Shown here piece by piece: positions 20,170-51,372 of a stretch of DNA of 64,000 nucleotides (position 1 is its first letter; the number at the start of each line of letters is the position of its first letter). The DNA is from Mesorhizobium sp. M4B.F.Ca.ET.203.01.1.1 (lineage in GTDB: Bacteria; Pseudomonadota; Alphaproteobacteria; Rhizobiales; Rhizobiaceae). The notes below the pieces were generated by a model, which was not told the origin of the DNA, did no database searches, and saw only the letters and a program-made list of their open reading frames with translations. The position numbers and the translations under genes were made by a program. The DNA lies in the NCBI RefSeq assembly GCF_004791025.1, contig NZ_SRUO01000003.1, forward strand, positions 496,001 through 560,000, read 5' to 3'.

Positions 20170-20208
20170 TCCTCGCTAGCAGAATCTTGCGAGAGGTCGA
20201 CGGGACAG

Positions 20209-20368
20209 CGCCCCCCTCTGCCCTACCGGGCATCTCCCCCACTTGGGGGGAGATCAGCCACGACCACGGCTTTCGCCAATCTCCTACGTTGCCGAATTGA
20301 GCTAAGCGCCGCAGCCGCCAATCTCCCCCCTTGTGGGGGAGATGTCCGGCAGGACAGAGGGGGGCGCG
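20209..20368. repeat. 160-bp palindromic repeat (class A)
   Basis: Terminal arms GCGCCCCCCTCTG and CAGAGGGGGGCGC, then CATCTCCCCC-type inner arms on both sides, with a less conserved centre. The same element occurs at 47575-47734 and, inside a coding gene, at 49832-49992. It lies between the convergent phnE and epimerase genes and could terminate both. The rest of 20170-20398 holds nothing else recognisable. Confidence 0.85.
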
Positions 20369-44175: not shown

Positions 44176-44325
44176 GGCGCCGCCCCTCATTGTCCTGCCG
44201 GACATTTCTCCCAGTAGAACGGGGAGAAAGATGCCTTCGTCAACGATTTCGCAAATGGCCGAAGCTGCCTTCTTCTCCCCGTTTTACGGGGAGAAGGTGC
44301 CGGCAGGCGGATGAGGGGCGGCGCC
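44176..44325. repeat. 150-bp palindromic repeat (class B) with a class-A-like segment
   Basis: Ends GGCGCCGCCCCTCAT and ATGAGGGGCGGCGCC are perfect inverted arms. Inside are TGTCCTGCCGGACAT (shared with class A) and CTTCTCCCCG / CGGGGAGAAG hairpins (shared with 13239 and 59081). It looks like a mosaic of two families. It lies between the convergent cupin and M24 genes and could terminate both. Confidence 0.8.
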
Positions 44326-45712: not shown

Positions 45713-45906
45713 TCTGGTTGATTGGGCCGCTTCCTGGCTACTGGTCCAGCGGACGAAAATTTCAAAGCCACGCCACCATGCGCCAATTCCGTCTCTGGCG
45801 AAACCCTCGGCAAGGGCCATAATCGCCGCCGCAAGGACGTTCGCGGACCCGCTGGCGTCGAGGGGAATTGGCGCCCGCCGGGTGGCGCGGAGGACGGAGG
45901 TCGATC

Positions 45907-47517
45907 ATGTCAGCTTTCACCATTTCCAGGCGCACCGTGCTTGCCGGCTCGGCGGCGCTGCTCGCCTCCACCGCCATGCCGGTGATCGGTCGCGCGCAGA
46001 CGCCGAAGAGGGGTGGCCGTCTGGTCGTTGCCGCCGATTCCGAGCCGCGCAACCTCAACCCGGCGATCGTCGCCTCCAACGGCGTATTCTTCATCTCCAG
46101 CAAGGTCGTGGAGACGCTGGCCGAGGCTTCCTTCGACGGCAAGGACGGGCTCCAGCCACGCCTGGCGCTGTCCTGGGAAGGTGCTGCCGACGGCCTCTCG
46201 GTGACGTTCAAGCTGCGCGACGGCGTCAAGTGGCATGACGGCAAGCCGTTCAGCTCCGCCGACGTCGCCTTCTCGGCGCTGCAGCTGTGGAAGCCGCTGC
46301 AGAATCTCGGCCGCACCGTGTTCAAGGATCTCAGCACGGTCGAAACGCCGGACGAGCTGACCGCCGTGTTCAAATTCGCCAAGCCGACGCCGTTCCAGCT
46401 GATCCGCAATGCGCTGCCGGCGCTGTCGAGCGTCGTGCCGAAGCATGTCTATGAGAACGGCAAGATCGAGGAGAACCCGGCCAACAACGCGCCCGTCGGC
46501 ACCGGCCCGTACAGATTCGCCGAATACAAGGCCGGCCAGTACTACCGGCTGGCGAAGAACGCCGACTACTGGGGCAAGGACGAGCCCTATCTCGACGAGA
46601 TCGTCTACCAGGTGCTCCCCGATCGCACCTCGGCGGCCGCGGCGCTCGAGGCGGAAGAGATCCAGCTTGCCGCTTTCTCCGCCGTGCCGCTCGCCGATCT
46701 CGACCGCATCTCCAAGGTGCCGGGCCTGAAGGTGATCACCAAGGGCTATGAGGGGCTGACCTACCAGCTCGTGGTCGAGATCAATCATCGGCGCAAGGAA
46801 CTCGCCGACCTCAAGGTGCGCCAGGCGATCGCCCATGCCATCGACAAGGACTTCGTCGTCAAGACGATCTTCCTCGGCTATGCCGCCACCGCGACCGGCC
46901 CGGTGCCGAAGAACGACCCGCAGTTCTACACCGCCGACGTGCCGACCTATGCCTTCGATGTCGCCAAGGCCAATGCTCTTCTCGATGAGGCCGGCTACAA
47001 GAAAGGCCCCGACGGCAATCGCTTCTCGCTGAAGCTCCTGCCGGCGCCCTATTTCAACGAGACCAAGCAGTTCGGCGACTATTTGCGCCAGGCGCTCGCC
47101 GCCGTCGGCATCGACGCCGAACTGGTCAACAACGACTCTCCCGCGCATATCAAGGCCGTCTACACAGACCATGCCTTCGACCTCGCCGTCGGCCCGCCGG
47201 TGTTCCGCGGCGACCCGGCGATCTCGACCACCATCCTGGTGCAGAGCGGCATCCCGGACGGCGTGCCCTTCTCCAACCAGGGCGGCTACAAGAACGCGGA
47301 GCTCGACGCGCTCATCGCCAAGGCATCGGAGACGCTCGACACCACCGCCCGCACCGAGCTCTACAAGGAATTTCAGAAAAAGGTCGCCGCCGACCTGCCG
47401 CTGATCAACGTCGCCGAATGGAGCTTCATCAGCGTCGCGCGCGATACGGTCGGCAACATCGCCAACAACCCGCGCTGGGCGGTATCGAACTGGGCGGACA
47501 CCTATTTGGCGGGCTGA
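45907..47517 (+). CDS. Dipeptide/oligopeptide-type ABC transporter binding protein (family 5), Tat-exported
   Basis: 536 residues. The N-terminus has a twin-arginine signal (SRRTVLAGSAALLASTAMP), so it is probably exported folded. The SBP family 5 core follows: LVVAADSEPRNLNPAIV, VTFKLRDGVKWHDGKPFSSADV, PVGTGPYRFAEYK. GGAGG precedes the ATG. It begins an operon with two permeases, two ATPases and an ATC-hydrolase-like gene. Substrates of this family include peptides, amines, nickel and opines; not assigned. Confidence 0.9.
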   Translation: MSAFTISRRTVLAGSAALLASTAMPVIGRAQTPKRGGRLVVAADSEPRNLNPAIVASNGVFFISSKVVETLAEASFDGKDGLQPRLALSWEGAADGLSVTFKLRDGVKWHDGKPFSSADVAFSALQLWKPLQNLGRTVFKDLSTVETPDELTAVFKFAKPTPFQLIRNALPALSSVVPKHVYENGKIEENPANNAPVGTGPYRFAEYKAGQYYRLAKNADYWGKDEPYLDEIVYQVLPDRTSAAAALEAEEIQLAAFSAVPLADLDRISKVPGLKVITKGYEGLTYQLVVEINHRRKELADLKVRQAIAHAIDKDFVVKTIFLGYAATATGPVPKNDPQFYTADVPTYAFDVAKANALLDEAGYKKGPDGNRFSLKLLPAPYFNETKQFGDYLRQALAAVGIDAELVNNDSPAHIKAVYTDHAFDLAVGPPVFRGDPAISTTILVQSGIPDGVPFSNQGGYKNAELDALIAKASETLDTTARTELYKEFQKKVAADLPLINVAEWSFISVARDTVGNIANNPRWAVSNWADTYLAG

Positions 47518-47574: not shown

Positions 47575-47734
47575 GCGCCCCCCTCTGTCCTGCCGGACAT
47601 CTCCCCCACAAGGGGGGAGATTGGCGGCTTTGGCGCCTCGCACTTTCCTGCAGCGTTGCAGGTTGGCGAAAGCCGCGGTGCCAGCTGATCTCCCCCCAAG
47701 TGGGGGAGATGTCCGGCAGGACAGAGGGGGGCGC
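47575..47734. repeat. 160-bp palindromic repeat (class A)
   Basis: Almost the same sequence and length as 20209-20368, with terminal arms GCGCCCCCC...GGGGGGCGC and inner CATCTCCCCC/GGGGGAGATG. A TCCTTC stretch and CGTAGA flank it here and at the coding copy 49832, so they belong to the extended element. It separates the binding-protein gene from the permease gene. Confidence 0.85.
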
Positions 47735-47778
47735 CGTAGAACTCGGCGTTCATGGCTTGGCCTTGGAGCGGCTTCGCC

Positions 47779-48765
47779 ATGACCCGCGCCCTCGCCCTCA
47801 TCCGCCGCCGTCTCGTCGGCAGCGTCTTTGTGCTTTCGATCGTCATCATCGGCACATTCCTCCTGCTCGAAGCTGCCCCTGGCGACGCGGTCGACGCCTA
47901 CATCGTCTCGACCGGCGGCGACGCCGGCCTGATCGAGGTGCTGCGCCACCGCTGGGGCCTCGACCAGTCGGAACTGACGCGGCTCGCCAACTATCTTTGG
48001 GCGCTCTGCCATCTCGATCTCGGCCAGTCCGTCACCTTCTCGCGACCTATCCGCGACATCATCCTCGAACGCCTGCCCACCACGCTGATCCTGATGGGCA
48101 GCGCCACCGCGCTCTCCTTCGGCCTCGGCTCGGCGCTCGGCATCTATGCCGGTGCAAAGCCCGGAAGCTTTCGCGACCGCTTCCTGTCGATCGGCTCGCT
48201 GGCACTCTATGCCGTGCCTGGCTTCTGGCTCGGCCTGGTGCTGATCGTCGTCTTCGCCGTCGACCTGCGCTGGCTGCCGATCGGCGGCATCGAGACCATC
48301 GCCTCCGCCAAGACCGGCCTTTCGCGGGCCGCCGACATCGCCACCCATCTCGTGCTGCCGGTTTCGGCGCTCGGCTTCATCTACCTCGCGCTTTACCTGC
48401 GCATGATGCGTGCCGGCATGGCCGAGGCCTGGCGGCAGGACTTTGTCCTCGCCGCCCGCGCCAGGGGGCTGTCGCGCCGACGCATCGTGCTTGCCCATGT
48501 CGCCCGCAACGCGTTGCTGCCGCTCATCACCATGCTCGGCCTGCAGTCGGCGCAGACGCTGGGCGGCAGCGTCGTCATAGAAAGCGTCTTTGCCGTACCC
48601 GGCCTCGGCCGTTTGGCGCAGGAAGCCGTCGCCGGACGCGACACGCCGCTGCTGCTCGGCATCATTCTCACCAGCGCCGTGCTCGTCATCGTGATCAACC
48701 TCCTGGTCGACCTTGCCTACGCCCTGCTCGATCCGCGCGTCGGCGCCAGTGAGGCCGGCGCATGA
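47779..48765 (+). CDS. Dipeptide-type ABC transporter permease (DppB-like)
   Basis: 328 residues. The ATG at 47779 has GGAG ten bases upstream. Six membrane segments are expected. The family loop ARARGLSRRRIVLAHVARNALLP and the ending GRDTPLLLGIIL are present. It overlaps the DppC-like gene by 4 bp. Confidence 0.9.
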   Translation: MTRALALIRRRLVGSVFVLSIVIIGTFLLLEAAPGDAVDAYIVSTGGDAGLIEVLRHRWGLDQSELTRLANYLWALCHLDLGQSVTFSRPIRDIILERLPTTLILMGSATALSFGLGSALGIYAGAKPGSFRDRFLSIGSLALYAVPGFWLGLVLIVVFAVDLRWLPIGGIETIASAKTGLSRAADIATHLVLPVSALGFIYLALYLRMMRAGMAEAWRQDFVLAARARGLSRRRIVLAHVARNALLPLITMLGLQSAQTLGGSVVIESVFAVPGLGRLAQEAVAGRDTPLLLGIILTSAVLVIVINLLVDLAYALLDPRVGASEAGA

Positions 48766-49592
48766 GCCGGCTGCATCGTTTCCTTCGCAGCCCGGAAGCG
48801 ATCGCCGGAACTGCGATCCTCGCCTTGCTATTCGCCATGGCGCTTACCGCGCCGCTGCTCTTTCCCGGCGACCCGCAGGCCATCGCAGGCCCGGCATTGC
48901 TGCCGCCATTCCAAGACTGGTCGCTGCCGCTCGGTACCGACCGGCTCGGCCGCGACGTGCTGGCCGAACTGTTCCACGGTGCCCGCACCTCGCTGGCCGT
49001 CGGGCTGTCGGCGGCGGGCGCAGCACTCCTGATCGGCGCGGTGGTCGGCACGCTGGCCGGTTTTGCCGGCGGCCTGATCGACGAGGTGCTGATGCGCATC
49101 ACCGATGCCTTCCAGACCGTGCCCGGCTTCCTGCTGGCGCTGGCCTTCGTCAGCATCGTCGGCCCTTCGCTTGGCGTGGTCGTTGCCGCCATCGCGCTCG
49201 GTGCCTGGACCGGACCGGCGCGCGTCGCACGCGCCGAGGTGCTGTCGATCCGCGAGCGCGACTATGTCGCCGGCGCCCGCGTCATCGGCATGCATCCGCT
49301 CGAGATCGCCTTTCGCGAAGTGCTGCCCAACGCGCTGCCGCCGGTGCTGGCGCTGTCCTCGGTGATCGTCGCGGCGGCGATCCTGACGGAAGCCGCCCTG
49401 TCCTTTCTCGGCCTGGGCGACCCCAACCGCGTCACCTGGGGCGCCATGATCGCCGAAGGCCGCGCCGTCTTGCGCACCACGCCCTTCCTGTCGATCATTC
49501 CCGGCATCGCCCTGGTGCTGACCGTGCTCGGCGTCTACCTCGCCGGCGAAGGCGTCGTCGAGACGACGGCGGTGCGGAGAAGCCTGTCGTGA
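48762..49592 (+). CDS. Dipeptide-type ABC transporter permease (DppC-like)
   Basis: 276 residues with six membrane segments. The family loops TDRLGRDVLAELFHGARTSL and YVAGARVIGMHPLEIAFREV are clear, as is LSFLGLGDPNRVTWG. It is overlapped at the 3' end by the GTG of the ATPase gene (GTGA), so expression is coupled. Confidence 0.92.
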   Translation: MSRLHRFLRSPEAIAGTAILALLFAMALTAPLLFPGDPQAIAGPALLPPFQDWSLPLGTDRLGRDVLAELFHGARTSLAVGLSAAGAALLIGAVVGTLAGFAGGLIDEVLMRITDAFQTVPGFLLALAFVSIVGPSLGVVVAAIALGAWTGPARVARAEVLSIRERDYVAGARVIGMHPLEIAFREVLPNALPPVLALSSVIVAAAILTEAALSFLGLGDPNRVTWGAMIAEGRAVLRTTPFLSIIPGIALVLTVLGVYLAGEGVVETTAVRRSLS

Positions 49593-50596
49593 CGGCGCTG
49601 CTTTCGATCCGCGATTTGACGGTGAGCTATCGCGGCGATGGCCGCGAGGTGCCGGCGCTGAGGGGCGTGAGCCTTGAGATCGAGGCCGGTGAGCGCCTGG
49701 CGATCATCGGCGAGAGCGGCTCGGGCAAGAGCACCCTGGCGCTGGCGATTGCGGGGTTGTTGGCGAGGGGTGCCAGGATTGGAGGTGCGATCGAATGGGC
49801 GATGCCGAATTTGCAAATGCCTCATTCCTTCGCGCCCCCCTCTGTCCTGCCGGACATCTCCCCCACAAGGGGGGAGATCAGCAGTTCCGTCGCCGGCACT
49901 TCTTTTTCAACGTCGATGATCGGCGAAAGCGGTAATGAGAAGGCAATCTCCCCCCTTGTGGGGGAGATGTCCGGCAGGACAGAGGGGGGCGCCGTAGAGC
50001 GCCGACCTCTTCATCTTGGCAGCGCAGTACCCCGCCTCGGCCGCGACATCGGCTTCGTCTTCCAGGACCCCTCCTCCAGCCTCGACCCGGTCATGCCCGT
50101 CGGCAAGCAGATCGCTGAAGTCGCCCTGACCCATCTCGGCCTCTCCTGGCCGCAAGCCTACGCCCATGCCAAAACCCTGCTCGAACGCGTCCGTCTGCCC
50201 GATCCCGACGCCTCCATGCGCGCCTATCCGCATCAACTCTCGGGTGGCCAGAAGCAGCGCGTCGCCATCGCCGCCGCCATCGCTGCCGGACCAAAACTGC
50301 TAATCGCCGACGAGGCGACCAGCGCGCTCGACACCATCGTGCAGGCCGAGATCGTGTCGCTCATCCGGCGGCTGGTCGCCGAGGACGGCATGACGCTGCT
50401 GTTCATCAGTCATGACATCGCGCTCGCCGCCGAGCTTGCCGAGCGCATCGCCGTGTTCCGCTATGGCGAACTGCTCGAGCTCGGCACGACGGCGCAGATC
50501 GTCAACGCCCCGCGCCACGCCTACACGCGCGCGCTGCTCGACGCTCATCTCGGCCTCGACGCCGGACCGCTGCGGCAGGCCGGAGCGCCGGCATGA
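49589..50596 (+). CDS. Dipeptide-type ABC transporter ATPase (DppD-like) carrying an in-frame repeat insertion
   Basis: 335 residues from the GTG at 49589 (GTGA overlap). Walker A GESGSGKST (residues 41-49), Q-loop Gln159 (GFVFQDPSSSLDP), signature LSGGQKQRVAIA, Walker B LLIADEATSALD and H-loop ISHD are intact. Between GGAIEW (residue 70) and GRDIGF (151) lie about 80 residues where about 20 are usual. This excess matches a class A repeat (49832-49992, residues 82-135), read without a stop. The insert lies in the beta-rich lobe, before the Q-loop. The protein may still fold, or be impaired. Confidence 0.85.
   Translation: MTALLSIRDLTVSYRGDGREVPALRGVSLEIEAGERLAIIGESGSGKSTLALAIAGLLARGARIGGAIEWAMPNLQMPHSFAPPSVLPDISPTRGEISSSVAGTSFSTSMIGESGNEKAISPLVGEMSGRTEGGAVERRPLHLGSAVPRLGRDIGFVFQDPSSSLDPVMPVGKQIAEVALTHLGLSWPQAYAHAKTLLERVRLPDPDASMRAYPHQLSGGQKQRVAIAAAIAAGPKLLIADEATSALDTIVQAEIVSLIRRLVAEDGMTLLFISHDIALAAELAERIAVFRYGELLELGTTAQIVNAPRHAYTRALLDAHLGLDAGPLRQAGAPA
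49832..49992. repeat. 161-bp palindromic repeat (class A) inside the ATPase gene
   Basis: Same ends (GCGCCCCCC...GGGGGGCGC), inner arms CTCCCCCACAAGGGGGGAGAT / ATCTCCCCC...GGGGGAGATG, and flanks as the copy at 47575, 2.3 kb upstream. It is fully translated in the host frame, giving segments such as APPSVLPDISPTRGEI and SPLVGEMSGRTEGGAV. The centre differs from the other copies. Confidence 0.9.
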
Positions 50597-51372
50597 GCCT
50601 GCTCGCCGTCTCCGGTCTCACCAAGCGCTATCGTCGCGGCGGCGGAACCGTCGCCGCCGTCGATGGCGTTGCGTTTGCGATCGAGCCCGGCGAGACGCTG
50701 GCGCTTGCCGGCCCGTCCGGCAGCGGCAAGTCGACCATCGCGCGGCTGGTACTCAGGCTGACCGAGCCGGACGCCGGCACCATCCAGTTCGAGGGCGCAG
50801 ACTTCCGCTCGCTGGGCGGATCTGCCCTGCGTGCGAGGCGCGCGCGCCTGCAGATGGTGTTCCAGGATCCGCTCGCCGCCTTCAATCCGCGCGCCACCGT
50901 GGCGCGTGTCTTGGACGACCCCTTGCGCATTCACGGCATTGCCTCGCGCACAGAGCGCCCGCGCCGCATCGCCGCCCTGCTGGAGCGCGTTGGCCTTGGC
51001 GCCGATCTCGCGCCGCGCGCCATCCACGAGATCTCCGGCGGCCAGCGCCAGCGCGTCGCCATTGCCCGCGCCATCGCCACCAAACCGTCGCTGATCGTGC
51101 TCGATGAGGCCGTGTCGGCGCTCGACGTATCGGTGCGCGGCCGGATCCTGGACTTGTTGCTCGACCTTCAGGCCACGGAACGGATCGCCTACCTTTTCAT
51201 TTCGCACGATCTCGGCGTCGTCCGCGCCGTCGCCCACCGCCTCGTCATCCTCGATGCCGGCCGGGTCGCCGAAAGCGGCGATGCCCGTGCCGTCATCGGC
51301 AATCCGCAATCGGCGATCGGCAGGGCGCTGGTGGCGGCGGCACCGAGATTGAACAGGACCACCGCACCATGA
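50593..51372 (+). CDS. Dipeptide-type ABC transporter ATPase (DppF-like)
   Basis: 259 residues. Walker A GPSGSGKST, Q-loop MVFQDPLAAFNP, signature [14 protein letters not shown], Walker B LIVLDEAVSALDV. It overlaps the first ATPase gene by 4 bp and the next gene by 4 bp. It normally forms a heterodimer with the DppD-type ATPase. No insertion is present here, giving an internal comparison for the interrupted partner. Confidence 0.92.
   Translation: MSLLAVSGLTKRYRRGGGTVAAVDGVAFAIEPGETLALAGPSGSGKSTIARLVLRLTEPDAGTIQFEGADFRSLGGSALRARRARLQMVFQDPLAAFNPRATVARVLDDPLRIHGIASRTERPRRIAALLERVGLGADLAPRAIHEISGGQRQRVAIARAIATKPSLIVLDEAVSALDVSVRGRILDLLLDLQATERIAYLFISHDLGVVRAVAHRLVILDAGRVAESGDARAVIGNPQSAIGRALVAAAPRLNRTTAP

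Follow-up and report, generated by a model that had tools for sequence, protein, structure and literature searches.

In-frame palindromes of the size considered here are best known from Rickettsia, where the Rickettsia palindromic elements (RPEs) were reportedly described by Ogata and Claverie; short REPs within genes are known from various bacteria. In the accounts cited here, RPEs are dispersed palindromes of about 100-150 bp that lie in frame in conserved protein genes and are tolerated there (PMC2229807, PMC10969869). GTAG/CGTC-tagged REPs measure 20-40 bp and occur in bacteria including alphaproteobacteria, some of them within conserved genes of free-living species; the main text of that paper, from which the word Mesorhizobium is absent, also describes REP insertions at about one site of recB in two Xanthomonas species (BMC Genomics 2013, PMC3733652). 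The Correia/NEMIS elements of Neisseria are outlined as small inverted-repeat elements, a 107-bp kind of which is fused to ORFs (PMC2229807), and their inversion has been reported (cited in PMC10969869). In rhizobia, the Rhizobium-specific intergenic mosaic elements (RIMEs) are dispersed palindromic repeats, as summarized from Osteras et al. 1995 (cited in PMC2573895).

Here we analysed a stretch of 64,000 nucleotides (the window) of Mesorhizobium sp. M4B.F.Ca.ET.203.01.1.1, in which a palindromic repeat lies in frame within the ATPase gene of an uptake operon. It is a putative protein-coding palindromic element, RPE-like by its behaviour, since it belongs to a dispersed family and is inserted in frame in a gene with uninterrupted homologues. 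A preliminary description of the window had likened it to the coding palindromes of Rickettsia and Wolbachia, and going by behaviour this appears apt in the sense of "works like": those elements too are described as dispersed, in-frame, tolerated palindromes of similar kind. Unlike RPEs, the Mesorhizobium element is found in Rhizobiales with large genomes, it occupies few host genes (the ATPase, cobN and cobG) in many species, and it has both loop orientations and a loop that fits the frame. It resembles tagged REPs, as characterized in the paper above, in being a palindromic repeat inside ORFs but differs from their 20-40 bp in size, and its own genome is without a Y1/RAYT transposase match. 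Compared by description only, RIMEs are likewise dispersed rhizobial palindromes but are named intergenic, and the inversion of Correia elements, in the source that cites it, is discussed for promoters near genes whereas the Mesorhizobium loop lies inside reading frames. Coding palindromes are already known; what is new is the retention at one site across a genus, the frame-fitting loop and the two readable orientations. We found no report of translated palindromes in Mesorhizobium in the open-access literature, outside which most subscription papers lie.

Results

A palindrome in frame within an uptake ATPase

The uptake operon comprises five genes, for a binding protein, two permeases and two ATPases, one of which carries the insert. 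The features of the window to which we refer are as follows.

20208-20367, minus strand: non-coding copy of the element, 160 bp, loop opposite in orientation
45868-47517, plus strand: solute-binding protein SBP_bac_5, operon member, start codon uncertain
47575-47734, plus strand: non-coding copy, 160 bp, lying between the genes for the operon's solute-binding protein and its first permease
47752-48765, plus strand: permease 1, Opp/Nik B type, operon member
48762-49592, plus strand: permease 2, Opp/Nik C type, operon member
49589-50596, plus strand: OppD/DppD-type ABC transporter ATPase with the insert, from ORF and motifs, 335 aa, GTG start
49799-50038, plus strand: variable region of 240 bp running between two conserved codons, W70 and G151, and containing the element and its outer ends
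49832-49992, plus strand: core of the palindromic element, 161 bp, in frame, about residues 82-135 of the ATPase
49832-49878, plus strand: 5' arm, 47 nt, inverted repeat, 100% complementary to the 3' arm
49879-49945, plus strand: loop, 67 nt, F orientation, length 1 mod 3
49946-49992, plus strand: 3' arm, 47 nt, inverted repeat, 100% complementary to the 5' arm
50593-51372, plus strand: second ATPase, without insert, operon member

PF00005 (ABC_tran) matches the ATPase at 9e-28 in two stretches, and its top PDB matches are named DppD and then OppD. The claim that a class A repeat lies in frame, without a stop and with all ATPase motifs kept, was borne out by an open frame running from the GTG at 49589 to the stop codon ending at 50596; we take the motifs to be Walker A, Q-loop, LSGGQ, Walker B and H-loop. 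The estimate of about 54 codons for the insert fits the palindrome itself (161 bp, or 53.7 codons) but not the gain over the common empty allele, which is larger at 213 bp or 71 codons, Walker A and the Q-loop being 345 bp apart here and 132 bp apart in that allele. Both non-coding copies that had been noted in the window were recovered at 160 bp each. With terminal inverted repeats of 47 bp and a length of 161 bp, too short for a transposase gene, the element is in these respects like a MITE; as to a target-site duplication, the flanks of filled and empty alleles come from different species and do not align to the base. Folded as RNA, 49826-49999 reaches -132.5 kcal/mol, compared with -67.6 in shuffled sequences (n=200, z -12.75), and no Rfam family reached its gathering score within the window. 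In an AlphaFold2 run on the ATPase (49 sequences, mean 76.5, pTM 0.72) residues 74-144 had a pLDDT below 50 and were flanked by two confident strands, with most of the rest confident; the insert is predicted to be a disordered stretch.

The arms form a dispersed family

Searches with a 28-nt arm pattern, allowing up to 3 mismatches, gave 60+57 = 117 matches in the own genome and none with the reversed-pattern control. Forty complete copies were read there. When they are aligned, a weak likeness extends some 20 bp past the palindrome on both sides, with several types of end cassette; as regards the GTAG/CGTC tag, the cassettes differ among the 40 copies and the consensus is without a single tag. 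Arms are present in 80 of 81 same-genus genomes (0 to 113 forward matches each) and in 54 of 121 family-level genomes, our own included. Since 179 of 72,556 plasmid records carry an element match, mostly from Rhizobium (72) and Sinorhizobium (69), the arm family may be, or include, a RIME.

The Y1 transposase model PF01797 found no match in the own genome, while control matches were obtained in 5 of 14 named genomes; among high-copy genomes 4 of 12 have a match, and 1 of 7 within the genus. A RAYT was rejected as the mobiliser, as the own genome is without a match and there is no link to copy number.

Filled, scarred and empty alleles of the ATPase

A protein search with the ATPase found some relative in each of the 81 same-genus genomes. 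We took 70 loci and dropped two, L039 (contig end) and L050 (N run), so that 68 segments were read; 11 genomes were left out, most of them with best matches only of paralogue strength, G013, G054 and G076 with a match to the Q-loop side only and G068 at a contig end. By length and score the segments were classed as 41 filled, 14 scars and 13 empty, where one or two "empties" of odd sequence (L046, L067) may represent old scars. The uninterrupted allele that had been proposed to exist in relatives is thus present in 13 of 68 same-genus segments and in all eight outgroup rows. Orthologues from Aminobacter, Brucella and Rhizobium are empty. That all homologues might carry an unrelated insertion of the same length had been considered; this is not so, as empty alleles exist and same-site copies of the element are found in 41 of the 68 segments, well beyond its own genome. 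From the conserved W to the next conserved motif there are 225-276 bp in filled segments (196 in L040) and 18-27 bp in empty ones. Lengths are multiples of three, with no stop, in 39 of 41 filled segments, the exceptions being L044, which is frameshifted, and L040, whose arms enclose an N run; they are divisible by three in 14/14 scars and 13/13 empties.

In a tree built from the ATPase minus its insert (77 rows, 735 columns) one clade of 66 holds every filled and scar row with support of 99/98. Ten same-genus empties nest within this filled clade, several of them native-looking in sequence, and the other three are basal; empties cluster on the tree (8 changes, shuffled mean 13.2). As empties are nested among filled alleles, a single gain followed by deletions is insufficient by itself, and the history also requires either exchange among species or more than one insertion. 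The median number of arm matches is 58 in the 41 genomes with a filled ATPase, 44 in the 14 with a scar and 20.5 in the 10 core empty ones, filled genomes having more than core empties (Mann-Whitney p 4.5e-5), and the three basal genomes with an empty ATPase have 0-1 forward matches.

In-frame copies in cobN and cobG

A search for translated class A copies among all proteins of the genome had been suggested, and three more were found in frame, two in cobN and one in cobG. These two genes are overlapping neighbours on a contig other than that of the ATPase, and their products pass the NCBIfam cut-offs (CobN 1591 bits against 1235, CobG 455 against 234.8). Counting copies with at least 50 open codons on both sides, 13 spanning ORFs were listed, four of these being the one in the ATPase, the one in CobG and the pair in CobN. 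Eight of the remaining nine are without a Pfam domain; in the last, L089, a TPM domain follows the element, which is probably an upstream copy. In five more genomes (40 loci, by eye) in-frame copies were seen in the ATPase, in cobG and, for G021, G027 and G033, in cobN. CobG matched in 60 of 61 genomes searched: 41 matches are full-length through the insert (one, in G031, with an internal TAG), 16 are in two pieces split at the insert and 3 are otherwise. All 19 parsed CobG loci (of 30) are filled in frame, 13 in F and 6 in R orientation. The cobG copies and those at the second cobN site look the same as the ATPase case. At CobN site 1 of the own genome the loop has 92 nt and the 5' arm is read in a different frame, so the coding copies of this genome are not all in one frame.

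We also noted that in cobN of the own genome (the gene at L108:4485-8243) site 1 is occupied by a class A copy about 190 bp long, and in G021, G033 and G027 (L220, L221, L228) by a different repeat-like in-frame stretch of PTPPGPAGHPPLEGEG-type; the two kinds of insert seem to share one permissive site. Gene conversion among the coding copies of one genome was considered and rejected, loop identity between ATPase and CobG being 0.60-0.67 within genomes (7 pairs) and on average 0.67 between them (158 pairs).

Frame and palindrome are conserved but not the peptide

Every ATPase loop measured has 67 nt (34/34; of the seven other copies four, of F or R orientation, failed the pattern, and L038, L040 and L044 were left out). 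The CobG loops are all 1 mod 3 in length (17/17 measured, with 2 of 19 outside the count): 67 nt in 11, 85 in five and 70 in one. Non-coding loops of the own genome (29 parsed, 7 unparsed) have 66 nt (23) or 65 nt (6) and never 67. A pattern search of the own genome and G033 (38 of 43 places in the latter, diverged copies escaping the pattern and G027 not being in the counts) gave 67 nt in 6/6 copies at the ATPase, cobN site 2 and cobG, and, among the matches listed, in 1/34 other copies of the own genome and 3/35 of G033, or 4/69. Among the matches listed and with CobN site 1 included, the comparison is 6/7 coding against 4/69 other copies (Fisher p 6e-6). The extra base sits at one alignment position in ATPase and CobG loops, so these copies may represent a single lineage of elements whose loop fits the frame, the alignment of such variable loops being no proof. 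Stops occur in 0/51 coding loops and in 34% of non-coding loops padded to 67; after flipping the values are 8/51 and 36%. Given symmetric arms and a loop length of 1 mod 3, both readings of the loop would be mostly open.

The N- and C-parts of the ATPase are under purifying selection, with diversities in the C-part of 0.13/0.08/0.33 at codon positions 1/2/3. Loop variation is without codon periodicity (p 0.34 for the F loops of the ATPase and likewise for the R loops) and pN/pS is 0.5-1.0, compared with 0.6-1.0 in the flipped control; by these two measures no selection on the loop amino acids was seen. The arms vary little at every codon position, third-position diversity being 0.09 against 0.27-0.33 in ATPase codons. 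The two arms of one copy differ by 2.94 mismatches, against 3.99 for arms across species, a value reached in 0/5000 shuffles, which ignore relatedness. With a loop lacking codon periodicity and arms that are alike at the DNA level, it is the frame and the palindrome that are kept and not the peptide.

Two orientations of the loop

The filled ATPase alleles have 25 loops in F and 14 in R orientation, with L038 and L040 having no clear orientation. On the ATPase tree the 14 R rows require 14 changes of state, no fewer than after shuffling (mean 13.0). The F rows are clustered: they require 16 changes where shuffling gives a mean of 21.2, and a value this low came up in 1 of 500 shuffles. Orientation is therefore not wholly independent of descent. 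Over 264 F-R pairs loop identity is 0.70 when one loop is flipped and 0.59 as is, compared with 0.72 for pairs of the same orientation; the F and R labels come from scoring each loop against the one in the window, a procedure that raises the flipped identity. The best pair, L032 F and L071 R, is 0.87 identical flipped and 0.63 as is, with flanks at 0.83 (left) and 0.60 (right). Among 85-nt CobG loops L195 (F) is 0.72-0.73 identical to L198 and L200 (R) when flipped and 0.58-0.62 as is; L204 gives 0.66-0.68 flipped against 0.61, and L194 shows no gain from flipping. Sister rows of opposite orientation (L014/L071) may differ in their flanks too, and allele exchange is thus also part of the history. 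Taken together the two-orientation data favour flipping in place.

Discussion

The insert looks like an old, tolerated and perhaps flippable one rather than a new working domain, and we consider it quite probable that it is a tolerated, translated selfish palindrome, RPE-like in behaviour, whose loop probably flips by way of its arms. A copy of a dispersed, non-autonomous palindromic element would have entered the ATPase between two of its strands, in the interval from Walker A to the Q-loop, early in the core Mesorhizobium radiation and alongside the spread of the family. Its translation would yield some 70 disordered residues, and we infer from the conservation of the frame that it is translated and tolerated, because frame and openness are kept while the loop amino acids drift. 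Recombination or repair between the arms could flip the loop in place; correction from arm to arm, or exchange with other copies, rather than selection on the protein, may maintain the likeness of the arms; and deletion stimulated by the palindrome could account for the loss of the element. Scars, losses, exchange between species and flipping after the insertion would be the simplest course.

Elements with 67-nt loops might instead have inserted repeatedly and independently at a hot spot, the alleles then spreading between species and the orientations reflecting separate insertions without any flipping. Such a history would leave native-looking empties within the filled clade, two types of flank, an R state scattered over the tree as if at random and arms nearly identical everywhere, all of which are seen, and the greater number of arms in filled than in core empty genomes agrees with it as well as with the selfish-palindrome reading. 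Against it, ATPase loops are more alike among themselves (0.71) than to the non-coding copies of the own genome (0.65), and when the own ATPase loop is compared with 34 ATPase, 11 CobG and 29 own non-coding loops, its ten best matches all come from other species, seven from the ATPase and three from CobG. Loop likeness also tracks right-flank likeness (rho 0.29), weakly so across orientations (rho 0.21, the pairs not being independent), and the 85-nt CobG loop too occurs in both orientations; we regard independent insertions as possible though on the whole unlikely.

The element might also be kept in place by a DNA or RNA role, for instance as a hairpin in the mRNA of the operon, in attenuation or in RNase III processing, with translation as a side effect. 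Attenuation or RNase III processing roles have been described for some palindromic repeats, the hairpin is very strong, the arms are conserved at all codon positions and fit each other, and a second copy lies in the same operon between the binding-protein and permease genes. We nevertheless find such a role doubtful, as the element is missing or scarred in 27 of 68 orthologues and likeness of the arms is to be expected in any active repeat family, the arm shuffles having ignored relatedness. The same 27 alleles, three of them basal, speak against an insert turned into a selected segment of the transporter, be it a new domain or a linker, as do the loop without codon periodicity, its pN/pS near that of the flipped control and the predicted disorder; retention in many species and purifying selection on the N- and C-parts of the ATPase would suit such a segment, which we hold to be very improbable, and no function in the host protein is indicated. 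As for an assembly artefact, which had been raised as a way in which two copies might have been joined, or a pseudogene, the identity of the repeats and nothing else speaks for it; the same insert is present in many species, including the single-contig genomes G009, G021, G033, G037 and G048, the frame is open and the motifs are conserved, so that the chance of either is negligible.

Returning to the selfish palindrome, a further step, which we regard as speculative and rather unlikely, is that the arms act as an inversion switch in protein genes, the loop flipping to and fro within living populations. If so, the ATPase, CobN and CobG would each have two readable forms about 22 residues apart, and it would be the 67-nt loop of this element lineage that permits both orientations to be read through. 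At one site this genus provides a natural series, with dozens of species whose alleles are filled, scarred or empty and whose loops lie in either orientation. On it one can measure how a selfish insert in conserved enzymes is tolerated, lost, flipped and fitted to the frame; two of the host genes are vitamin B12 genes, whose product can be assayed.

Several further observations concern individual loci. The ATPase of L048 (G027) has an additional in-frame insertion of about 42 bp within the 3' arm of the element. In G033 a copy lies in frame with the amino end of a membrane protein (L249, G033:C1:622000-625800), a doubtful case with an uncertain start codon in which the element is probably an upstream copy. 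Among the family-level genomes, G130 (same family, genus g51) has the highest number of arm matches (163+158); its Y1 transposase match, with one internal stop, may bear on the mobiliser. In the window itself a diverged palindrome at 44176-44325 has similar arms of 53 nt that are 83% complementary, and perhaps represents a second class of the same superfamily.
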